A DNA stretch of 64,000 nt from the NCBI RefSeq assembly GCF_002915595.1, contig NZ_PQGG01000042.1, forward strand, positions 62,001-126,000, written 5' to 3'. Position 1 is the first letter of the stretch, and every line of letters starts with the position of its first letter. Position numbers and translations under genes: made by a program. This document shows positions 10,383 to 64,000 of the stretch, one piece after another. Origin of the DNA: Zhongshania marina. Lineage in GTDB: Bacteria > Pseudomonadota > Gammaproteobacteria > Pseudomonadales > Spongiibacteraceae. The notes under the pieces were generated by a model. It was not told the DNA's origin and ran no database searches. It saw nothing but the letters and a program-made list of their open reading frames with translations.

Positions 10383-11750
10383 TTAGTTAAATGCCTTAAT
10401 GATATTGCCCAGCATTTCTTTTGCGTCACCAAACAACATCCGCGTGTTCTCTTTAAAGAACAGTGGGTTGTCGATACCCGCAAAGCCAGATGCCATCGAG
10501 CGCTTCATAACAAATACATTGCGCGCCATGTCCACGTTGATGACCGGCATGCCGTAAATCGGGCTGCCTTCCATTTCGCGTGCCGCGGGGTTAACCACGT
10601 CGTTGGCGCCGATAACGATCGCCACGTCGAAGGTTTCCATGCGCGGGTTGATCGCATCCATTTCCAGCAGTAGGTCATAAGAGACATCTGCTTCTGCAAG
10701 CAGTACGTTCATGTGACCAGGCATACGGCCTGCTACGGGGTGAATAGCGTAAACCACTTCAGCGCCATTCTTTTCTAGCAGCTCTTGCAGTTCTTTTACC
10801 ACGTGTTGTGCCTGTGCAACCGCCATTCCGTAGCCGGGGACAATGACCACGCTAGCCGCCGCTTCAAGCACGTAGTAGGCATCTTCTGCAGTCATGGCTT
10901 TGGCTTCGCCTTCGATCTTAGCGGCAGCGCCGCCAGCCGATACCGCGCTAAAGCCGCTGAACAGGACATTGCTCAGTGAGCGGTTCATCGCCTTACACAT
11001 GATTTGGGTCAGGATGATACCGCTAGCACCAACCAGTGCGCCCGCCACGATCAAGATGATGTTGTTGATTGCCAAGCCAGCCGCACACGCTGCTAGACCG
11101 GAGTAGCTGTTTAATAGCGAGATAACCACTGGCATATCGGCACCGCCGATAGGGATAACCAGCATGATACCCAGCAGCAGCGCAAGGCCGATCACCAGAT
11201 ACAGATAGAGGTGCGATTCTGGGTAGAGGGTGAACATGGCTGATGCGGCGATAATCGCAACAATCAGCAGGATATTAAAGACCCGCTGACCGCCAAAAAC
11301 CATTGGCTTGCCAGAGATGCGTTCACTTAACTTGCCCCAGGCAACCATACTGCCTGAGAAGGTCACACCGCCGATCAAGATCGACAAAATGATAGTGATC
11401 ATTTCAAAGGTGTTGGCTTCAAAGCCATATAGCGCAGCCCAGCCAACCAGTAAACTGGCGACACCGCCAAAGCCGTTAAACAGAGCGACCATTTCTGGCA
11501 TGCCGGTCATTTCAACGCGGCGGGCAACAATGGCGCCAATAGCACCACCGGCCACAACGCCGGCCAGAATCCATTTGTAATCAATTATGCTCTGATCTAG
11601 CAGGGTGATCACAACCGCAACAAACATACCCAGTGCAGACACCAAGTTACCCTTGCGGGCAGTTGCTGGTGAACCCAGCATTTTAAGACCGAAGATAAAG
11701 AGGACGGCCGCTGCCACATAGGACATATTTACCAGTAATTCGATGCCCAT
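10383..11750 (-). CDS. pntB: NAD(P) transhydrogenase subunit beta
   Basis: 455 residues: about eight or nine membrane helices in the N-terminal 270 residues, then the Rossmann-type NADP(H)-binding domain III (VPGYGMAVAQAQH, HPVAGRMPGHMNVLLAEA, VIVIGANDVVNPAA). With the alpha subunits it couples hydride transfer from NADH to NADP+ to proton entry and so supplies NADPH. Its ATG shares one base with the stop of the 96-residue subunit gene (TAATG). It is the last gene of the three-gene operon and runs into the palindromic terminator at 10337-10362. Confidence 0.97.
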   Translation of the reverse strand: MGIELLVNMSYVAAAVLFIFGLKMLGSPATARKGNLVSALGMFVAVVITLLDQSIIDYKWILAGVVAGGAIGAIVARRVEMTGMPEMVALFNGFGGVASLLVGWAALYGFEANTFEMITIILSILIGGVTFSGSMVAWGKLSERISGKPMVFGGQRVFNILLIVAIIAASAMFTLYPESHLYLYLVIGLALLLGIMLVIPIGGADMPVVISLLNSYSGLAACAAGLAINNIILIVAGALVGASGIILTQIMCKAMNRSLSNVLFSGFSAVSAGGAAAKIEGEAKAMTAEDAYYVLEAAASVVIVPGYGMAVAQAQHVVKELQELLEKNGAEVVYAIHPVAGRMPGHMNVLLAEADVSYDLLLEMDAINPRMETFDVAIVIGANDVVNPAAREMEGSPIYGMPVINVDMARNVFVMKRSMASGFAGIDNPLFFKENTRMLFGDAKEMLGNIIKAFN

Positions 11751-12040
11751 TACTTAGCACCTCCCTTCTTCTTGAACATGGCCAGCATGCGGTCGGTGAC
11801 CATATAGCCGCCGATCACATTGATGGTTGCCATCGCCACCGCGATGGTGCCAAGAATAGTAGCAAGGCCAGAGTGCTCCGCGCCTGCTGAGGTAAGGGCG
11901 CCGACAAGGGTAATACCCGAGATAGCGTTAGAACCTGACATTAACGGCGTGTGCAGTGTGGCAGGGACTTTATTGATCAGCTCAAAGCCTAAGAATATAG
12001 ACAGCATTAAGATGAAAGCGAGAAATACAATTTCCATCAT
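11750..12040 (-). CDS. NAD(P) transhydrogenase subunit alpha part 2 (membrane part)
   Basis: 96 residues with three predicted membrane helices (IVFLAFILMLSIFLG near the N-terminus, ATILGTIAVAMATINVIGGYMV near the C-terminus). It corresponds to the membrane portion that is fused to PntA in E. coli but separate in split-type (Rhodospirillum-like) enzymes. The LMSGSNAISGI motif matches this family. It ends in a TAATG overlap with pntB and starts six bases after the alpha-1 stop. Commonly labelled pntAB or pntA2. Confidence 0.95.
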   Translation of the reverse strand: MMEIVFLAFILMLSIFLGFELINKVPATLHTPLMSGSNAISGITLVGALTSAGAEHSGLATILGTIAVAMATINVIGGYMVTDRMLAMFKKKGGAK

Positions 12041-12046
12041 CTTCTC

Positions 12047-13180
12047 CTAGTTAATCAGGTTTTTAATGGTTTCGTTAACGATCTCGCCGCCGTGGGTGAT
12101 CACACAGCCCTGCAGAATATCGTTTTCCATGTCGATAACCATTTTCTTGTCATCGCCGTTCCAGCCTTCATCAACAAGGTTGAAGAGGTTGGATGAATAC
12201 ATTTGGCTGGCGTCGCGGCTAACGAAGTTAGACCAGTTGCCGTCGCCGATAATGGTCACGCCGTCGACAACAACGGTTTCACCAGCGACAGAGCCTTCAA
12301 CATTGCCGCCGCTCTCGGCTGCCATGTCGACAATAACCGAGCCGAGCTTCATGCCCTTGATCATGTCGCTGGTAACGAGTACCGGCGGCTTGCGACCAAA
12401 CAGTTGGGCGGTGGTGATGACGATGTCAGATTCAGCAATTTGCTTTTTCTGACCTTCAAGCTGCAATTTCATTTGCTCTTCGGTCAGGGCAACCGCGTAG
12501 CCATCTTTGGTTTGACCGGTTTCGCCGAGATCGATTTCAAGGAACTTGCCACCTAATGAGCGAACCTGCTCGGCAACCACAGAGCGGGTGTCAAAGGCAA
12601 CAACCTTGGCGCCAAGGCGTTTTGCGGTTGCAATGGCTTGCAGACCGGCAACACCGGCGCCGATGATGAAGACGGTAGACGGCTTCAAGGTGCCCGCTGG
12701 GGTCATCATCATGGGCAGAATGCGGGGTAGCTTGGTGGTGGCAAGCAGCACCATCACATAGCCGGCCAAGCTCGCCTGTGAACTGAGAGCGTCCATCTTT
12801 TGCGAGCGAGTAGAGCGTGGAATCATTTCCATACTGATCGCGCTTACTCCGCGATCACGGAAGGCTTTGATCAAGCTGTGTTCATTAAACGGATCCAGAT
12901 AGCTGATATGAATGCAGCCGGATTTCATCTGTCCAATTTCGTCCAATGTTGGCTTGCTGATACGTAAAATAATATCGGCATTGGCCAGCACGGCGTTGCG
13001 GTCAGCAATAACAGTGGCGCCAGCGTCGGTGTATTCCTCGTCGCTAAAACCGCTGCCTAAGCCCAAGCCCGCTTCGATTTGAATCGTAGCACCGGCTCTG
13101 ATTAGCTTTTTGGCATCTGTCGGAATAATCGCTGCGCGGTTTTCGCCGCTCGCGAGTTCTTTTGGGATTCCTATGAGCAT
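12047..13180 (-). CDS. pntA: NAD(P) transhydrogenase subunit alpha part 1 (NAD-binding)
   Basis: 377 residues, the soluble domain I that binds NAD(H). It resembles alanine dehydrogenase: IGIPKELASGENRAAI at the start, a glycine-rich dinucleotide fold (FIIGAGVAGLQAIATAKRLGA), and the VVDMAAESGGNVE motif. It is the first gene of the minus-strand operon pntA1-pntA2-pntB. The ATG is preceded by a weak purine-rich site. A 340-base non-coding stretch upstream separates it from the divergent MASE1 kinase. Split alpha subunits are usual in many Gamma- and Alphaproteobacteria. Confidence 0.97.
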   Translation of the reverse strand: MLIGIPKELASGENRAAIIPTDAKKLIRAGATIQIEAGLGLGSGFSDEEYTDAGATVIADRNAVLANADIILRISKPTLDEIGQMKSGCIHISYLDPFNEHSLIKAFRDRGVSAISMEMIPRSTRSQKMDALSSQASLAGYVMVLLATTKLPRILPMMMTPAGTLKPSTVFIIGAGVAGLQAIATAKRLGAKVVAFDTRSVVAEQVRSLGGKFLEIDLGETGQTKDGYAVALTEEQMKLQLEGQKKQIAESDIVITTAQLFGRKPPVLVTSDMIKGMKLGSVIVDMAAESGGNVEGSVAGETVVVDGVTIIGDGNWSNFVSRDASQMYSSNLFNLVDEGWNGDDKKMVIDMENDILQGCVITHGGEIVNETIKNLIN

Positions 13181-13521
13181 CTTTGTAGATCCATTGTGGT
13201 TAACAATTTGGTTTTGGGTAAAACGGCCTAGGATATTACAAATGGCCTTAAGAAGCGATAAAAGTGTGGATTAACTGAGTTTATGGTCAAGATAAAACTC
13301 CCTATAAATTAATATGATAGCGTCATATCTTGGCATGATAGTGGCCCGTATTGTCAGTTATTTAGGCAGTTCTACTTATAGAGCCATAAGCGTTTTGCGG
13401 ACTAAACTGACGTGGTTACGAATAGTTTTCGTATATCCAGATGACAGCGGAATTTGCGGGGTATGAGTGGAAAATCGATTAAATAATCCAACTGCTGTGT
13501 TTATGTTGATGTCGGTATGTG
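13181..13521. other. Divergent intergenic region between pnt operon and MASE1 kinase
   Basis: About 340 AT-rich bases. It must hold the promoters of both the pnt operon (leftward) and the kinase (rightward). The only structure noted is a small inverted repeat ATATGA-N5-TCATAT at 13312-13328, a possible regulator site. No gene or RNA is recognised. Confidence 0.5.
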
Positions 13522-15900
13522 ATGTCTGATCGCCGTAGCTTCGTGATACTTCTTGTTGCTTTAGCTTATTTATTATTAGGTAAGCTCGCACTTCTTCTTG
13601 CTATTCCACCGGGCTACGCTACCGCCATTTGGCCAGCAGCCGGTGTTGCCTTGGCTGCAGTAATGATAATGGGTTATCGCGTCTGGCCCGGTATTTTGCT
13701 GGGTTCCTTTCTGGTGAATATTGATGCGGTGCCGGCCTTGGGGCAGCCACTGCTCACATTGCTCGCGAGCTTTGTCGTCCCCTTTGTTATCGCCGTCGGT
13801 GCTGCGATACAGGCGCTGATAGGGGCCTACTTGATACGCCGTTATATTGGGTTTCAGTTGTCCCTCGACAGCGTAGGCGAGGTTTTGCGGTTTATCTTAA
13901 TTGGCTGTGGGCTTTCTTGTTTGGTAAGCGCTAGTGTCGGCACTGCGACCTTGTTTATGGCGGGCCTGCTCCCCGTAGAAAATTTTGTCTTTAACTGGCT
14001 AACGTGGTGGGTTGGCGACGGTTTAGGGGTGATGATTTTTACCGTGTTGACCTTTGTGTATCTCGGTAAACCGGAGGCTGTTTGGCGTAGTCGCCGTCGT
14101 ATTTTACCGGCGGTATTGCTTGGGGTGTCGGTGGTTGCGGTCACCCTCTATGTTTTCGGCAGTCGCTGGGAGTTATCGAGACAGCAAAGCGAATTCAGTC
14201 GTTACACCTCGCAAATATTTACCCGCGCACAAACTGTTATCGACGCGCATATAGAAAATTTGTATGCAACAAGGGCCTTGTTTGAGGTTTCTAATAAGGT
14301 AACGGCAATCGAGTTTGAGAAATTTGTCGATGGCTTTTTGGCGCGAAATACAGGCTTTCAAGCAATTGTTTGGGTTCAGCATATTCCTGACCGTGAACGA
14401 CTGACGATGGAGGCGCAGATGAGTGCCGAGCACGGTGCTCATGTCCTCATTACAGGGCGTGACGAAAAGCAAAATACCATGCCGCAGCTCAGCAAGGAGG
14501 ACTATTATGTTATTCGTTACATTGAGCCCTTGGCGGATAATTTGACAGCTTTGGGCTACGACATTAGTTCTAGCGATCTTGTCCGTAATGCTCTCGCGAG
14601 GGCTGCAGCCGGAAATTCCCCAGCGACGACGGGGCCGATTCGATTGGTTCAAGAGCAGGAAGATCAGCTGGGTTTGGTTGTGTATCTGCCGGTCCATTTT
14701 ATCAGCGACGCAACTAGCGGGGCTGGTTTGGCGGGTTATGTGGCTGCTGTTTTCAGAATCCCCGATCTAATGAATTTATTGCTGAGCTCAGATTATTTGG
14801 CGAATATCTCGGCCTCGGTTTCCGAGCGAGATGGTGGTGAAATTATCTTTGGTGATCGCTCGTCATCAGCTCAGGAGTCCTTATTCTCTGACAGTGCCGT
14901 TTTGCACTTCGCTGATACGGAGTGGCTTTTTCAGTTGACGGCGGACCAGCGGTTTTTGGTTGGTAGTCGGTCGATGGTGCCATGGGGAATGTTGGTGGCG
15001 GGCTTGCTGTTTACCGGCTTGCTGGGGATGACATTTTTGGTGTTAACGGGGCAAAAATATAGTTCTGAGGTGACTGGTGAAAAATTAAAGGGGATGCTGC
15101 ATCAACTCCAAGAGGCGCAGGAACACTTGGTTGAGGCTGAAAAAATGGCGTCGCTGGGGGGGTTGGTGGCGGGCTTTGCTCACGAATTAAATACTCCTCT
15201 TGGTATTGCAATAACTGCCGAATCTACCCTTCAGGATGATCTTGGTAAACTGGATGCGGCATTGCAGGAGCGTGGCGGAGTGGCTGCGGAGATAGCTACG
15301 CTGCGGCGAATGCAGGAGGCGTCCCGTATTGTGCTGGCCAATGTTCAGCGGGCTGGGGCGCTTATTATGAGTTTTAAACAGGTGTCGGTAGATCAGGCCA
15401 CGACGGAAACGCGAACAATAAATTTGCATGAATATTTAACGGACGTGCTAATGCATTTATCGCCGAATTACCGGCGCACTGGGCATGAGGTAATACTCGA
15501 TTGCCCGCCAGATCTTAATATTCGAACTGTGCCGGGAGGCATTGCTCAGGTTGTCATTAATTTATTAACTAATAGCCTTATTCACGCCTTTCCAAATGAT
15601 CGCAAGGGGCATATTAAGCTCGGTGTGAGTTCGCGCTCCGGCGAGGTTGTGATTCGATTCAGCGATGATGGGATTGGTATTCCGCTGGCCGATCAGAAAA
15701 AAATATTCGAGCCTTTCTACACTACTCGTCGCAGCAGTGGCGGCACAGGCTTGGGCTTGCATGTTGTCTACAATACCGTGAGGCGGCAATTGAAAGGGCG
15801 TATTTCCGTGAGTAGCCAGCCAGATCAGGGTGCGGTTTTTGAAATTGTATTACCTCTTACAATAAATGAATTTGTTGGTGAGGAGCAGGCCTTTGGTTGA
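13522..15900 (+). CDS. Orphan sensor histidine kinase with MASE1 and CHASE domains
   Basis: 792 residues from the ATG (a GTG lies one codon upstream; neither has a strong ribosome site). An N-terminal MASE1 multi-helix membrane sensor (about residues 8-215, with the GYATAIWPAAGVALA motif) is followed by an extracytoplasmic CHASE domain (about 225-430, GFQAIVWVQHIPD) and another membrane helix near 490-512. The kinase core has MASLGGLVAGFAHELNTP with His554, N box LLTNSLIHAF (Asn684), SDDGIGIP, FEPFYTTR and GTGLGLH. All catalytic motifs are intact. No regulator gene is adjacent. The core is strikingly similar to the kinase at 53180, so cross-talk with that operon's regulators is plausible. Confidence 0.93.
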   Translation: MSDRRSFVILLVALAYLLLGKLALLLAIPPGYATAIWPAAGVALAAVMIMGYRVWPGILLGSFLVNIDAVPALGQPLLTLLASFVVPFVIAVGAAIQALIGAYLIRRYIGFQLSLDSVGEVLRFILIGCGLSCLVSASVGTATLFMAGLLPVENFVFNWLTWWVGDGLGVMIFTVLTFVYLGKPEAVWRSRRRILPAVLLGVSVVAVTLYVFGSRWELSRQQSEFSRYTSQIFTRAQTVIDAHIENLYATRALFEVSNKVTAIEFEKFVDGFLARNTGFQAIVWVQHIPDRERLTMEAQMSAEHGAHVLITGRDEKQNTMPQLSKEDYYVIRYIEPLADNLTALGYDISSSDLVRNALARAAAGNSPATTGPIRLVQEQEDQLGLVVYLPVHFISDATSGAGLAGYVAAVFRIPDLMNLLLSSDYLANISASVSERDGGEIIFGDRSSSAQESLFSDSAVLHFADTEWLFQLTADQRFLVGSRSMVPWGMLVAGLLFTGLLGMTFLVLTGQKYSSEVTGEKLKGMLHQLQEAQEHLVEAEKMASLGGLVAGFAHELNTPLGIAITAESTLQDDLGKLDAALQERGGVAAEIATLRRMQEASRIVLANVQRAGALIMSFKQVSVDQATTETRTINLHEYLTDVLMHLSPNYRRTGHEVILDCPPDLNIRTVPGGIAQVVINLLTNSLIHAFPNDRKGHIKLGVSSRSGEVVIRFSDDGIGIPLADQKKIFEPFYTTRRSSGGTGLGLHVVYNTVRRQLKGRISVSSQPDQGAVFEIVLPLTINEFVGEEQAFG

Positions 15901-60504: not shown

Positions 60505-60972
60505 TTATGGATGTTTATCTGCGCTCGGATTATCGTTGCTTGCGGCGTTTTTAGGCAAAGGTTCTGTATTTTTGATCTCTAGTGCTGGTTCCGGTTGTTT
60601 TGCGATATAAAAGCTCATAATCGCCGCAACCGAAATCATCATCACGCTCAGCCAATGTATTTTTACGATAAGCAAGGCGCTGGTCAAAATTGTAATCCAC
60701 AGCATGGCAATAATAAGAAATTTGATCTTCCTTGGAATCCCTTGGCCATTCAGATAATAGCGAATGTACTTCCCCCACCAGCGGTGTTCAGTCAGCCACA
60801 CATAAAAGCGTGGCGAACTGCGTAAAAAACAGGCTGCGCAGAGTAATAAAAACGGAGTTGTTGGCACCACTGGCAGTAAAAGACCGATCATGCCCAATAC
60901 AAAGGAAATCCAGCCGATGACAAATAGGGTGTAACGAACGACAGGGTTGCGGTGCTGATAAGGTGTTTTCAT
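60505..60972 (-). CDS. YbaN-like DUF454 membrane protein
   Basis: 155 residues from the ATG at 60972; a longer frame upstream runs through the repeat region and lacks support. The DUF454 pattern GLLLPVVPTTPFLLLCAACFLRSSPRFYVWL is present, with membrane helices near 15-40 and two in 90-130. The C-terminal tail is hydrophilic. Its first codons and upstream region (60963-61015) are duplicated at 61162-61214, where they lead only to a six-codon dead end. The function is unknown. Confidence 0.88.
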   Translation of the reverse strand: MKTPYQHRNPVVRYTLFVIGWISFVLGMIGLLLPVVPTTPFLLLCAACFLRSSPRFYVWLTEHRWWGKYIRYYLNGQGIPRKIKFLIIAMLWITILTSALLIVKIHWLSVMMISVAAIMSFYIAKQPEPALEIKNTEPLPKNAASNDNPSADKHP

Positions 60973-61015
60973 TATTTCTCTAATTCGATGCTTGCCGCTT
61001 ACCTTAGCAAATAAG
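60963..61015. repeat. 53-base direct repeat, copy 1 (includes ybaN-like start)
   Basis: It spans the first codons, ribosome region and upstream sequence of the DUF454 gene. It is matched at 61162-61214 with a single mismatch, 199 bases away. Confidence 0.9.
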
Positions 61016-61032
61016 TGAGAAAGGGCGAAGGC

Positions 61033-61140
61033 TTTACGCTGGATGGGAGACGGAAGACGCAAAAGCCGGCGCGACTGCGCCGCGAGAAGCATGACCGCGG
61101 AGTAGTTTGCCCTTGTATCTCCCTTCTCCCGTTAAGCATT
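61033..61140. repeat. Intergenic palindromic element, unit 1
   Basis: The left arm TTTACGCTGGATGGGAGACGG (61033-61053) and right arm near 61118-61140 (TCTCCC...GTTAAGCATT) are imperfect inverted repeats. This resembles a short repeated intergenic (MITE/REP-like) element. A second unit lies at 61256-61360. Confidence 0.6.
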
Positions 61141-61161
61141 CAGCCGCCAGCTAGCGCAAAT

Positions 61162-61214
61162 GTGTTTTCATTATTTCTCTAATTTGATGCTTGCCGCTTA
61201 CCTTAGCAAATAAG
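61162..61214. repeat. 53-base direct repeat, copy 2
   Basis: Same as copy 1 except one base. Its copy of the start codon (minus strand, 61171-61169) opens into MKTHLR and then a stop, so it has been cut off from the gene by the duplication. Confidence 0.9.
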
Positions 61215-61255
61215 CACGAAGGGGCGAAGCGGATTTTTGGGCGGACGTCGAAGGC

Positions 61256-61360
61256 TTTACGCTGGACGGGAGACGGCTGACGCAAGCCCCGAGGCGCTAT
61301 TTCGCACGAAATACTAGCTCGAAGGGGGACTTTGCGTTTCCCGTCTCCCATCAAGCATCC
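61256..61360. repeat. Intergenic palindromic element, unit 2
   Basis: The left arm (61256-61276) equals the unit 1 left arm with one base changed. The right arm CCCGTCTCCCATCAAGCATCC (61340-61360) is its imperfect reverse complement. The middle differs from unit 1. The whole 60973-61581 gap contains only these repeats and the promoter region of the next operon; no gene is seen. Confidence 0.6.
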
Positions 61361-61581: not shown

Positions 61582-62559
61582 ATGTCGTCATCGGCTGAAA
61601 TTCTTAGCCAAGCCTTTACGCTGGGCTATACCTATACGCGGTCTACGGGGCCTATTGTGGGTCAGTTTTTGACCTCGCTGCGGGCACGTAAAATGGTTGG
61701 CATTAAAGCCAGCGATGGCAAGGTGCTGATGCCGCCGGTGGAGTTTGATCCGGTAAGTGCCGACGCTTTGAGCGAGTTTGTTGATGTGGCCGACAGCGGC
61801 GTCGTAAAGACCTGGTGCTGGGTAAAGCAGCCCCGCAAAGCTCATCCAAGTGATAAGCCTTTTGCGTGGGCAATGATACAACTCGACGGCGCAGACACCC
61901 CAATGTTGCATTGGGTTGATGCGGGTGACGAGGCGGCCATGAGCACAGGTATGCGGGTTAAAGTGCGTTGGGCTGAAGAGACCAAGGGCTTGATGAGCGA
62001 TATTAATGGCTTTGTTCCTGAGGCCGTTGCGCTGTTGGGTGAGTTGAAGCCTGCGGCGTCCGATGAGCAGATTACCGGCATGGAAGCGCCAATTTACCTG
62101 ACCTATAACTTCACCGCTGGCAAGGCGACGGCGCGCTATTTACAGTCGATGAAAAAGGGCAAGTTGGTAGGCCAGCGCTGCCCGAATTGCCGTAATGTGT
62201 ATATACCACCGCGTGGATCCTGTGCCGCCTGCGGCGTGCCAACCGAAGAAGAAGTGACCTTGGGCAACAAGGCCACGGTTGAGTCCTTCACAATTGTTTA
62301 CATCCCCATTCCTGGTAACCCCATTAAGCCGCCATATGTTATCGCCAATTTGGTCTTAGATGGCGCGAACCTGAGTTTCTTGCATTTGCTCAGCGAATGT
62401 AAAAACGAGGATGTGCGGATTGGTATGCGCGTAGAAGCGCTTTGGAAGCCCGAGGCAGAATGGGGCTACGCCATGGAAAATATTCAGTACTTCAAGCCCA
62501 TAGATGAGCCGGATGTACCGGTTGATCAAATTGGCAAATTAATTGATGAGGGCCGATAA
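61582..62559 (+). CDS. Tandem DUF35 (OB-fold) protein with one zinc ribbon
   Basis: 325 residues built of two DUF35/OB-type halves. The first (about 25-160) lacks cysteine ligands. The second (about 175-320) begins with a helix and a zinc ribbon with Cys200, Cys203, Cys214 and Cys217 (RCPNCRNVYIPP, SCAACG), then an OB fold (TVESFTIVYIPIPGNP). DUF35 proteins partner thiolase-like enzymes and hold acyl-CoA or bridge subunits, as in ChsH2 of steroid-degrading actinobacteria and the archaeal HMG-CoA pathway complex. GGAGAG lies 7 bases before the ATG. The next two genes are thiolase-like, so a three-protein complex is likely. Confidence 0.88.
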   Translation: MSSSAEILSQAFTLGYTYTRSTGPIVGQFLTSLRARKMVGIKASDGKVLMPPVEFDPVSADALSEFVDVADSGVVKTWCWVKQPRKAHPSDKPFAWAMIQLDGADTPMLHWVDAGDEAAMSTGMRVKVRWAEETKGLMSDINGFVPEAVALLGELKPAASDEQITGMEAPIYLTYNFTAGKATARYLQSMKKGKLVGQRCPNCRNVYIPPRGSCAACGVPTEEEVTLGNKATVESFTIVYIPIPGNPIKPPYVIANLVLDGANLSFLHLLSECKNEDVRIGMRVEALWKPEAEWGYAMENIQYFKPIDEPDVPVDQIGKLIDEGR

Positions 62560-62560
62560 A

Positions 62561-63619
62561 ATGCGTGATGTTGCGATAGTTGCCTTTGCGCAATCGAATT
62601 GCCAGCGAGATGCCGGTGCGCAAAACGAAGTCGAATTGATTATGCCGGTATTAAGTGAGGTGTTTAAACAAACCGGAATAAAAAGCGCGCAGGACGTTGA
62701 TTTTACTTGTTCTGGTAGCTGTGACTATCAGCAAGGTGCGGCCTTTGCCTTTGTTGCCGGTGTGGATGCCCTAGGTGCGGTGCCACCAATTAAAGAATCA
62801 CATGTAGAAATGGATGCAGCGTGGGCGCTTTATGAAGCCTGGCTGAAAATCCAAATGGGGCATGCTGAGTCAGCATTGTTGTACGGTTTTGGCAAATCTT
62901 CTCCGGGTGAGCTACCGATAGTGCTGTCTCAGCAACTTGATCCGTATTACCTCGCGCCGCTGTGGGTAGACACCATTGCCTTTGCGGCGATGCAGGCGAG
63001 AACAATGCTGGATTCAGGTGAGATTACCGAGGCTGACATGGCCGAGGTGGTGGCGCGCTCAAGAAATAATGCCCTGGCGAATCCCCATGCGCAGTTAAAA
63101 GGTGATCAGACCGCCGCTGATTTATTAAAAGAAGCGACCTATGTTTCTCCTTTGCGTCTTCATGATTGCTGCCCTATTTCTGACGGTGCCTGTGCCATGA
63201 TTATCTGCACCATTGAAAAAGCAGAGGAGTGGGGCAAACCCTACGCGATCATCAAAGGGATTGATCACCGCATAGAAACCCATCACATCGGCTCGCGGGA
63301 TTTAAGCCGCTCGGTATCGACGGAAATTGCCGGTGAAGCGGTTGGTGTAAAAAATGGCAAGGTCGATGTTGCTGAGCTATATGCGCCCTTTAGTCATCAA
63401 GAAATTATTCTTAAAAAGGCCCTGGGCTTGGGCGATGACACGGTCATTAATCCCTCAGGTGGGGTGTTGGCGGGTAACGTCATGATGGCATCCGGCTTGT
63501 CGCGAATTGGCGAAGTCGCCATGCGAATTATTCGCGGTGAAGCAACACGCGGGGTTGCCCACGCGACATCAGGTCCGTGCTTGCAACAAAACCTAGTTAC
63601 CGTACTGGAGGCGAAATAA
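62561..63619 (+). CDS. Thiolase-like protein lacking the catalytic Cys and His
   Basis: 352 residues from the ATG at 62561, one base after the previous stop. The overall thiolase fold is visible (MRDVAIVAFAQS, QLKGDQTAADLL, ISDGACAMIIC, GGVLAGNVMMASGLSRI). The nucleophile position aligned with Cys89 of ordinary thiolases is Glu83 (SHVEMDAAWAL). The GHP histidine is replaced by Asn (GNVMMASG). A Cys in SGPCLQQN near the C-terminus remains. Plain thiolysis is therefore unlikely. Aldolase-type chemistry, as in Ltp2, or a non-catalytic subunit role is more plausible. It overlaps the next gene by one base (TAATG). Confidence 0.87.
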   Translation: MRDVAIVAFAQSNCQRDAGAQNEVELIMPVLSEVFKQTGIKSAQDVDFTCSGSCDYQQGAAFAFVAGVDALGAVPPIKESHVEMDAAWALYEAWLKIQMGHAESALLYGFGKSSPGELPIVLSQQLDPYYLAPLWVDTIAFAAMQARTMLDSGEITEADMAEVVARSRNNALANPHAQLKGDQTAADLLKEATYVSPLRLHDCCPISDGACAMIICTIEKAEEWGKPYAIIKGIDHRIETHHIGSRDLSRSVSTEIAGEAVGVKNGKVDVAELYAPFSHQEIILKKALGLGDDTVINPSGGVLAGNVMMASGLSRIGEVAMRIIRGEATRGVAHATSGPCLQQNLVTVLEAK

Positions 63620-64000
63620 TGGCTCAGTTAGCTGCGGTTGTTGGCGTAGGCCAAACAAAATATAAAACCAAGCGTAAAGATGTTTCTATTGCGGGAATGG
63701 TCAGAGAAGCAGCGGTAGGTGCCCTTGAAGATGCGGGCCTAACGTGGAAAGACATAGACGCGGTCATTATCGGCAAGGCGCCAGATATGTTTGAGGGCGT
63801 AATTATGCCCGAGCTATATTTGACTGATGCATTGGGCTGCAATGGCAAGCCTATGCTGCGTGTACACACGGCGGGTTCGGTAGGTGGCTCAACCGCCATT
63901 GTTGCCGCCAGCTATGTGCAAAGCGGTGTGTTTAAGCGGATTTTGACGGTGTCTTTTGAGAAACAGTCGGAGTCAAATGCCATGTGGGCGCTGTCTAATC
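63619..64000 (+). CDS. Second thiolase-like protein, cut by the window end
   Basis: 127 residues are visible and the frame continues past the edge. The start MAQLAAVVGVGQTKYKTKR and GALEDAGLTWKDIDAVIIG match the SCP-x/thiolase-like N-terminal domain. At the expected nucleophile position the sequence is RVHTAGSVGGSTAIVAAS, without Cys. The start overlaps the previous stop (TAATG). It is probably the heteromeric partner of the preceding protein; the missing C-terminal half would show whether any catalytic residues remain. Confidence 0.86.
   Translation, partial: MAQLAAVVGVGQTKYKTKRKDVSIAGMVREAAVGALEDAGLTWKDIDAVIIGKAPDMFEGVIMPELYLTDALGCNGKPMLRVHTAGSVGGSTAIVAASYVQSGVFKRILTVSFEKQSESNAMWALSN

Follow-up and report, generated by a model that had tools for sequence, protein, structure and literature searches.

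A likely Ltp3–Ltp4-type steroid aldolase for C24-branched sterols in the gammaproteobacterium Zhongshania marina

Plants and many algae contain chiefly sterols that are branched at C24. In actinobacteria, ltp3 and ltp4 are described as aldol lyases for the side chains of such sterols in passages of the review PMC6678751 and of the transcriptome or genome papers PMC7807495, PMC6593523 and PMC8708139, all of which cite Wilbrink et al. 2012 and one of which names a "heteromeric aldol-lyase (Ltp3-Ltp4)"; as cited in PMC6678751 and PMC7807495, both genes are reported to be genetically needed in Rhodococcus for growth on C24-branched sterols. The mycobacterial genes appear in part of PMC6429209 as Rv3522 (ltp4) and Rv3523 (ltp3), with Rv3521 as a conserved hypothetical gene, alongside Rv3515c (fadD19), Rv3516 (echA19), Rv3520c (an F420-dependent oxidoreductase), Rv3545c (cyp125) and Rv3546 (fadA5), and a passage of PMC1995591 places a KstR motif between Rv3520c and Rv3521. 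According to a section of the review PMC6678751, removal of C24-branched side chains is less characterised than that of the cholesterol side chain. Here we analysed a 64,000-nucleotide stretch (the window) of the Zhongshania marina genome, in which three adjacent genes, for a tandem DUF35 protein and two thiolase-like chains, likely encode a coenzyme A (CoA)-dependent steroid aldolase of the Ltp3–Ltp4 type that acts on C24-branched sterols. Because actinobacteria are already known to carry the homologous ltp4/ltp3 pair and Rv3521-type gene, the system is not new. What it adds is a gammaproteobacterial operon with a predicted racemase, a consistent pair of unlike DUF35 units, and a predicted active site unlike those of the characterised aldolases.

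The window covers positions 62001–126000 of contig C37, in a genome of 4.13 Mb and 46 contigs. The three-gene core lies at 61582–64000 on the plus strand: an Rv3521-type gene for a 325-residue protein with two DUF35 halves in one chain (61582–62559), an Ltp4/Rv3522-type gene for the first thiolase-like chain (chain 1; 62561–63619, 352 residues), and an Ltp3/Rv3523-type gene for the second (chain 2; from 63619, 387 residues in total). The ATG of chain 1 at 62561 follows the DUF35 open reading frame after one base, and the ATG of chain 2 at 63619 overlaps by one base the chain 1 stop, which ends there; these coordinates bear out the tight packing, with gaps of 1 and −1 bases, described in the initial annotation. 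Chain 2 runs past the window edge at 64000 and ends at C37:126782, 782 bases further on, complete within the contig. The remainder of the operon can be read on the same contig, which extends 8,147 bases beyond the window (locus L005, whose positions plus 56000 give window positions). Relatives were collected by a scan of named genomes (at least 589 confirmed stretches, of which the best 80 were kept), to which three loci from a plasmid collection were added, giving 83 checked loci.

Both chains are thiolase folds that lack the nucleophilic cysteine, as initially proposed. Chain 1 passed the NCBI model NF005924/PRK07937 (495.3 bits; cut-off, 419) and fell below both Pfam thiolase cut-offs (23.5 vs 28 and 22 vs 26.4 bits). 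Its AlphaFold model (predicted local distance difference test score (pLDDT), 86.9; predicted template modelling score (pTM), 0.89; residues 57–61 and 116–135 under 50) matched thiolase-fold proteins in all 50 listed Protein Data Bank (PDB) entries, with 6et9 as the best. In the HMMER alignment with the solved thiolase 6esq, Glu83 (codon 62807–62809, motif ESHVEMD) occupies the position of the nucleophilic Cys, and Glu83, His81 and Asp85 were each found in 87 of 87 homologues. Their conservation is partly imposed because the locus scan used the patterns ESHVEMD[AG] and CSGS[CS]DY; the nearly invariant Cys50 (86/87) lies inside the latter pattern. At the His position of the HDCF motif, chain 1 has Tyr274 (among 87 homologues: His, 56; Tyr, 26; Cys, 3; Ser, 2), and at the Cys position Pro276 (85/87). 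Asn306 replaces the His of the GHP motif, as reported for this chain at the outset (Asn in 81/87, His in 6), and the second chain likewise has Asn (Asn333).

Chain 2 passed NF006180/PRK08313 (657 bits; cut-off, 514). Aligned by HMMER with the solved thiolase 6hsj, it places Gly86 (codon 63874–63876, within HTAGSVGG) at the nucleophile position, Tyr282 and Pro284 at the HDCF His and Cys positions, and Asn333 at the GHP His position. Each of these four residues occurred in 83 of 83 homologues, and these counts are free of search-pattern selection, the patterns having come from chain 1. Of the 88 loci, 87 contributed an alignment row for chain 1 and 83 one for chain 2; one and three rows, respectively, were too short and were dropped, and two contigs (L079 and L092) end before chain 2. 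A real cysteine nucleophile, named in the initial annotation as a finding that would refute its proposal, was absent from the alignments, and the number of homologues with a Cys within three residues of this position was 0 of 87 for chain 1 and 0 of 83 for chain 2. An ordinary thiolase (acyl-CoA acetyltransferase) was rejected because neither chain has the nucleophilic Cys and the GHP His is Asn in both.

Gene order connects the two chains to Ltp4 and Ltp3. In Nocardia farcinica (L056), a ligase gene (minus strand), a crotonase gene (plus) and an F420 oxidoreductase gene (minus) precede the genes for tandem DUF35, chain 1 and chain 2 (plus), beyond which lie genes for a cytochrome P450 (minus) and a FadA5-like thiolase (plus) that match their Tsukamurella counterparts at 62% and 70%. 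This is the order of the named mycobacterial genes, and we therefore regard chain 1 as homologous to Ltp4 and chain 2 as homologous to Ltp3. The models PRK07937 and PRK08313 presumably contain Ltp4 and Ltp3, with gene order as the sole support for this assumption. The Tsukamurella locus (L057) carries an annotated steroid 3-ketoacyl-CoA thiolase, and both of these Mycobacteriales relatives have two Cys-less thiolase-like chains and a tandem DUF35 protein, as here. The window operon resembles Rv3521–Rv3522–Rv3523 in having DUF35, short-chain and long-chain genes adjacent on one strand, and shares with Rv3521–ltp4–ltp3 a nearby ligase and crotonase and a steroid context. In contrast to that set, it is gammaproteobacterial and also includes, directly downstream, genes for a racemase of the MCR type, a nitroreductase and a second crotonase.

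The kept relatives include Spongiibacteraceae, Halieaceae, Sterolibacterium metagenome-assembled genomes (MAGs), Acidimicrobiia, Streptomyces, Pseudonocardiaceae and Myxococcota; the closest named record among the matches listed, with 99% identity in chain 1, comes from Zhongshania aliphaticivorans isolate BC9_2A, and three Sterolibacterium MAG loci carrying the set are among the best 80 of the at least 589 stretches. Chain 2 adjoins chain 1 in 81 of the 83 fetched loci, the other two stopping at a contig end (L079 and L092), and the second DUF35 unit lies at most 250 bases upstream in 82 of 83, with slightly overlapping matches in L122. Since the three-gene arrangement recurs in loci of Gammaproteobacteria, Sterolibacterium (Betaproteobacteria), Actinomycetota and Myxococcota, it is not due to chance. 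Within flanks of at most 12 kb, many cut shorter by contig ends, a ligase relative (at least 40% identity) was found in 51 of the 83 loci and a crotonase relative (45%) in 43. HsaC-like (40%), FadA5-like (60%) and CYP125-like (60%) genes occurred in 17, 14 and 13 loci, respectively, and any of the three in 27, a count that includes L057, the source of the FadA5 and CYP125 queries. Cupriavidus necator plasmid p1 also encodes a protein distantly related to chain 1 (25.9% identity), close to which DUF35 matches occur in two pieces; it may belong to a related set with another substrate.

Two unlike DUF35 units accompany the two chains. In the 325-residue protein, Pfam found two OB_ChsH2_C stretches and one zf-ChsH2 ribbon, in agreement with the initial description of two DUF35 halves with one zinc ribbon. 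The first OB fold (residues 67–130; 61780–61971) belongs to the half without zinc-ribbon cysteines, and the ribbon of the second half spans residues 192–220 (62155–62241) with Cys200, Cys203, Cys214 and Cys217. The AlphaFold model (pLDDT, 85.2; pTM, 0.51), in which the relative placing of the halves is uncertain, had 6ok1, the Ltp2–ChsH2(DUF35) aldolase, as its best PDB match by E-value. Script-based scoring of 88 loci (the 83 checked loci, L005 and four from related genomes) gave 39 fused and 49 separate cases. L086 and L107 were then removed from the fused class as contig-end artefacts, their weak first-half match (27%–29%) overlapping the second-half match. Two distinct units were thus present in 86 of 86 scorable loci (37 fused, 49 separate), and one-unit loci were not found among them; this suggests a 2+2 heterotetramer. 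Residues 38–65 of the first unit contained no Cys in 74 of 86 homologues, one in 11 and two in 1. The second unit kept all four ribbon cysteines in only 42 of 88 homologues and three or more in 62 of 88, which means that zinc is not universal in this unit either.

A quick tree of 81 loci, built from both thiolase-like chains (LG+G4, no bootstrap), requires at least seven changes between fused and separate DUF35 states, six of them forced by its starred branches, with no direction inferred. Sequencing frameshifts could explain isolated separate cases in draft genomes, but whole groups have separate units, among them all Halieaceae rows of the tree. Two distinct DUF35 units for Ltp3/Ltp4-type sets were not found in the non-subscription papers searched; the one paper found to name ltp3, ltp4 and DUF35 together, PMC10398937, draws no connection between DUF35 and Ltp3/Ltp4 in its available part. 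No structure of an Ltp3–Ltp4-type enzyme came up in fold searches or in sequence searches of solved structures.

The set co-occurs with steroid-ring genes. The initial annotation had suggested looking past position 64000 for MaoC, acyl-CoA dehydrogenase or steroid genes; steroid-ring genes are indeed present, but on another contig (C14). The genome has four KshA_C matches, the best of which (245.2 bits) is on C14 beside HsaA-like (365.1 bits) and HsaC-like (279.1 bits) proteins. In a sample of 57 genomes (our own and 56 relatives), chain 1 was detected in 25 at E ≤ 1e-30, and KshA and HsaC in 24 and 28 at E ≤ 1e-60. Chain 1 and KshA occurred together in 23 genomes, chain 1 alone in 2, KshA alone in 1 and neither in 31 (Fisher p = 1.3e-12); the corresponding numbers for HsaC were 23, 2, 5 and 27 (p = 4.4e-9), the p values being read with the caveat that genomes are not independent. 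When the sample was restricted to the 36 genomes from outside the family, each representing a family of its own, the KshA comparison gave 5, 2, 1 and 28 (p = 3e-4). Within the genus, chain 1 was missing from 3 of 18 genomes, and the identical three lack KshA and HsaC. Catabolism of steroids by Spongiibacteraceae and Halieaceae, according to a metagenome study, and growth of gammaproteobacterial sponge isolates with cholesterol are described in passages of PMC5790920, and use of beta-sitosterol by S. denitrificans in part of PMC11061730.

Three further DUF35 ribbon proteins are encoded in this genome. Two adjoin thiolase folds that stay below their best model, PRK07855 (274.6 bits in L007 and 282.7 in L006 vs 469), and the third adjoins a PRK06059 protein (686.4 bits; cut-off, 424). 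Also on C14, some 4 to 11 kb away from the genes for the HsaA-, HsaC- and KshA-like proteins, are genes for F420 biosynthesis and reduction (L025:1402–4646; CofC, 120.7 bits, cut-off 105; CofD, 298.4, cut-off 257.45; NpdG, 209.8, cut-off 149.8). Two pairs of a PRK06157 thiolase (686.9 and 651 bits; cut-off, 403) and a 3-hydroxy-3-methylglutaryl (HMG)-CoA synthase-like protein (171.9 and 137.5 bits; cut-off, 244) lie at L029:6675–9366 (C30) and L026:3529–6158 (C14).

Downstream of chain 2 follow genes for an acyl-CoA ligase (L005 8949–10580; PRK07798, 672.7 bits, cut-off 543), a first crotonase (10593–11426; PRK07799, 325.4 bits, cut-off 316), a CaiB-fold protein (11517–12668), a nitroreductase (12670–13347) and a second crotonase (13385–14152). 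We take PRK07798 to cover FadD19 and PRK07799 to cover EchA19. The CaiB-fold protein scored 374.2 bits to its nearest match, the alpha-methylacyl-CoA racemase MCR, vs 117.7 to the best CoA transferase; assignment as a CoA transferase was rejected on these scores in favour of a predicted alpha-methylacyl-CoA racemase, as would suit an acyl-CoA with a 2-methyl branch, for example that of a sterol C26 acid. An operon of the ChsH1/ChsH2/Ltp2 or Shy/Sal kind with MaoC was likewise rejected, as crotonases and no MaoC are present here. The eight operon genes include no carboxylase gene; in part of PMC6678751, carboxylation at C28 precedes cleavage of the C24-branched chain. Collectively, the family models, gene order, neighbours, adjacent racemase and co-occurrence with steroid-ring genes support the aldolase-type, steroid-linked reading offered in the initial annotation.

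From the genes, their homology and order, and their co-occurrence, we infer a substrate, a reaction, roles for the chains and a complex as follows. The enzyme of this bacterium probably removes the branched side chain of sterols from plants and algae. The ligase would activate the C26 acid, the racemase would set the C25 methyl centre, and an acyl-CoA dehydrogenase encoded elsewhere, together with the crotonase, would yield 24-hydroxy-26-oyl-CoA. With an alkyl group at C24, the product would be a tertiary alcohol that cannot be oxidised to a ketone for thiolysis, which leads to retro-aldol cleavage of C24–C25 as the proposed step, with propionyl-CoA and a C24 ketone as products. If the mechanism resembles those of Sal and Ltp2, the proton of the 24-hydroxyl would be taken by Tyr282 of chain 2; the residue that protonates the enolate would differ from that of both characterised enzymes. 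Chain 2 is favoured as the catalytic chain because it is better conserved than the other three modules: when 10 chosen gammaproteobacterial loci were compared with 10 chosen actinobacterial ones, mean identity was 65.0% for chain 2, 54.0% for chain 1, 45.8% for the first DUF35 unit and 39.5% for the second. Chain 1 would have a different pocket and act as a structural or regulatory partner, and the zinc-free and zinc-bearing DUF35 units would each cap one of the unlike chains, where the known alpha-beta-beta-alpha complex has a pair of identical DUF35 domains.

More tentatively, and with reservations that exceed our confidence, we speculate that aldolases of this type are obligate 2+2 heterotetramers of unlike thiolase-like chains and unlike DUF35 units, one of these mostly zinc-free, in which only the Ltp3-type chain is catalytic and Tyr282 as base is combined with a third kind of proton donor, distinct from the Cys of Sal and from the second Tyr of Ltp2. 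Candidates for this donor are His83 or Tyr370 of chain 2, or the conserved His81-x-Glu83-x-Asp85 of chain 1. If so, a pseudo-enzyme partner and an asymmetric scaffold would have evolved for substrates with a tertiary hydroxyl.

The proposed active site can be compared with those of solved DUF35 complexes. For CtSal, part of PMC12329534 proposes Tyr302 as base and Cys304 as acid, with Gly at the nucleophile position, and has Tyr294 and Tyr344 serve in TcLtp2. CtSal–CtShy(DUF35) (9myr), a bile-acid C5 side-chain aldolase, shares with our system the Gly and Tyr (in chain 2) and the DUF35 partner, but differs in being a homodimer whose two DUF35 domains are identical and belong to a MaoC hydratase. 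TcLtp2–ChsH2(DUF35) (6ok1), a C3 side-chain aldolase and, as noted, the closest solved DUF35 match by E-value, shares the base Tyr (Tyr294 there, Tyr282 in chain 2) but has one kind of thiolase-like chain. BbsA–BbsB benzoylsuccinyl-CoA thiolase (7pxp), a true thiolase, shares DUF35 and the thiolase fold, and its equivalog models are far from reached (25.6 vs 250 bits; 57.5 and 122.9 vs 750 bits).

Several observations weigh against an Ltp3–Ltp4-type aldolase for C24-branched sterols. The known catalytic acids are replaced in chain 2, Cys304 of Sal by Pro284 and Tyr344 of Ltp2 approximately by Asn333 (placed by eye from the alignments), in 83 of 83 homologues each. The predicted active site therefore matches neither characterised steroid aldolase; the catalytic base is probably kept and the acid different. 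The link to Ltp3/Ltp4 rests on gene order, models and papers rather than on direct sequence alignment. The first crotonase stays below the EchA19 equivalog (322.1 bits; cut-off, 400), as do the HsaA-like and HsaC-like proteins below theirs (365.1 and 279.1 bits; cut-off, 450). In the operon, a Pfam scan found neither MaoC nor acyl-CoA dehydrogenase, which the initial annotation had suggested looking for. P450 matches occur at ten places in the genome, the best at 36% to the Tsukamurella P450, and none was identified as CYP125. Two genomes (G037 and G050) have chain 1 without KshA, and one (G047) has KshA without chain 1. Finally, phytosterols are mostly C24-branched. When six genes of Mycolicibacterium neoaurum WIII, including ltp3 and ltp4 singly, were knocked out, only loss of atf1 stopped the conversion of phytosterols to 4-HBC, a C22 steroid product of this species (passages of PMC10398937); in this strain the two genes are thus either not strictly required or replaced by something else, and the branch was removed in the absence of ltp3 or of ltp4, or along a different route.

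These knock-outs also bear on the alternative that the same kind of aldolase has another main substrate, such as the unbranched cholesterol chain, other sponge or algal sterols, or a 2-methyl-branched isoprenoid acyl-CoA. We regard this as unlikely, though a serious contender: the C24-branched substrate is inferred from actinobacterial genetics, the M. neoaurum ltp3 and ltp4 mutants still made 4-HBC from phytosterols according to the same passages, the racemase points only to a 2-methyl-branched acyl-CoA, and 2 of the 25 related genomes with chain 1 have no KshA match. However, a substrate other than a steroid would fit poorly with the co-occurrence of the set with KshA and HsaC, HsaC-, FadA5- or CYP125-like genes lie in the fetched flanks of 27 of 83 loci, and the set is present in Sterolibacterium MAGs.

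A complex for acyl transfer or condensation, of the kind seen in PhlABC/MucABC or in the archaeal thiolase/HMG-CoA synthase, with DUF35 bridging unlike chains, appears very improbable. Unlike thiolase-fold chains with DUF35 do occur in such complexes, chains of 5m3k (PhlABC) and 9vbt (MucABC) are among the DUF35 fold matches, and the best fold match of chain 1 is 6et9; however, an acyl-enzyme requires a nucleophilic Cys, which neither chain has, the neighbours look catabolic, and the set tracks steroid-ring genes. Even less credible is a purely carrier role for both chains. "Lipid-transfer protein" is the label of NF005924, the NCBI model of chain 1, and both chains are Cys-less at the nucleophile position, but chain 2 shows the strongest conservation among the four modules, its pocket motifs are invariant in 83 of 83 homologues, and ltp3/ltp4 are reported to be genetically needed in Rhodococcus (passages of PMC6678751 and PMC7807495). 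An aldolase acting on C24-branched sterols thus remains the favoured reading. The set would mark marine gammaproteobacteria that are probably able to remove C24-branched side chains, outside the actinobacteria used in industry, and an enzyme with published genetics gains testable statements: two distinct DUF35 units for two distinct thiolase-like chains, and an active site that differs from those of both characterised steroid aldolases.

Around the operon, a promoter/terminator scan of L005 5000–14400 gave no excess over shuffles (12 vs 11.0; 13 vs 12.7). Direct repeats lie upstream at 60960–61073 and 61159–61296 of the window, one of 71 nucleotides (92%, copies 199 apart) and one of 48 nucleotides (83%, copies 223 apart). 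Short pieces of these also match contigs C44, C39 and C2, and they are possibly remains of a dispersed repeat. Directly after the operon, on the minus strand, is an integron integrase gene (L005:14351–15361, C37:132351–133361; TIGR02249, 416.8 bits, cut-off 265). A cassette array is expected at the 5′ side of such a gene, and the contig ends 786 bases beyond this side.

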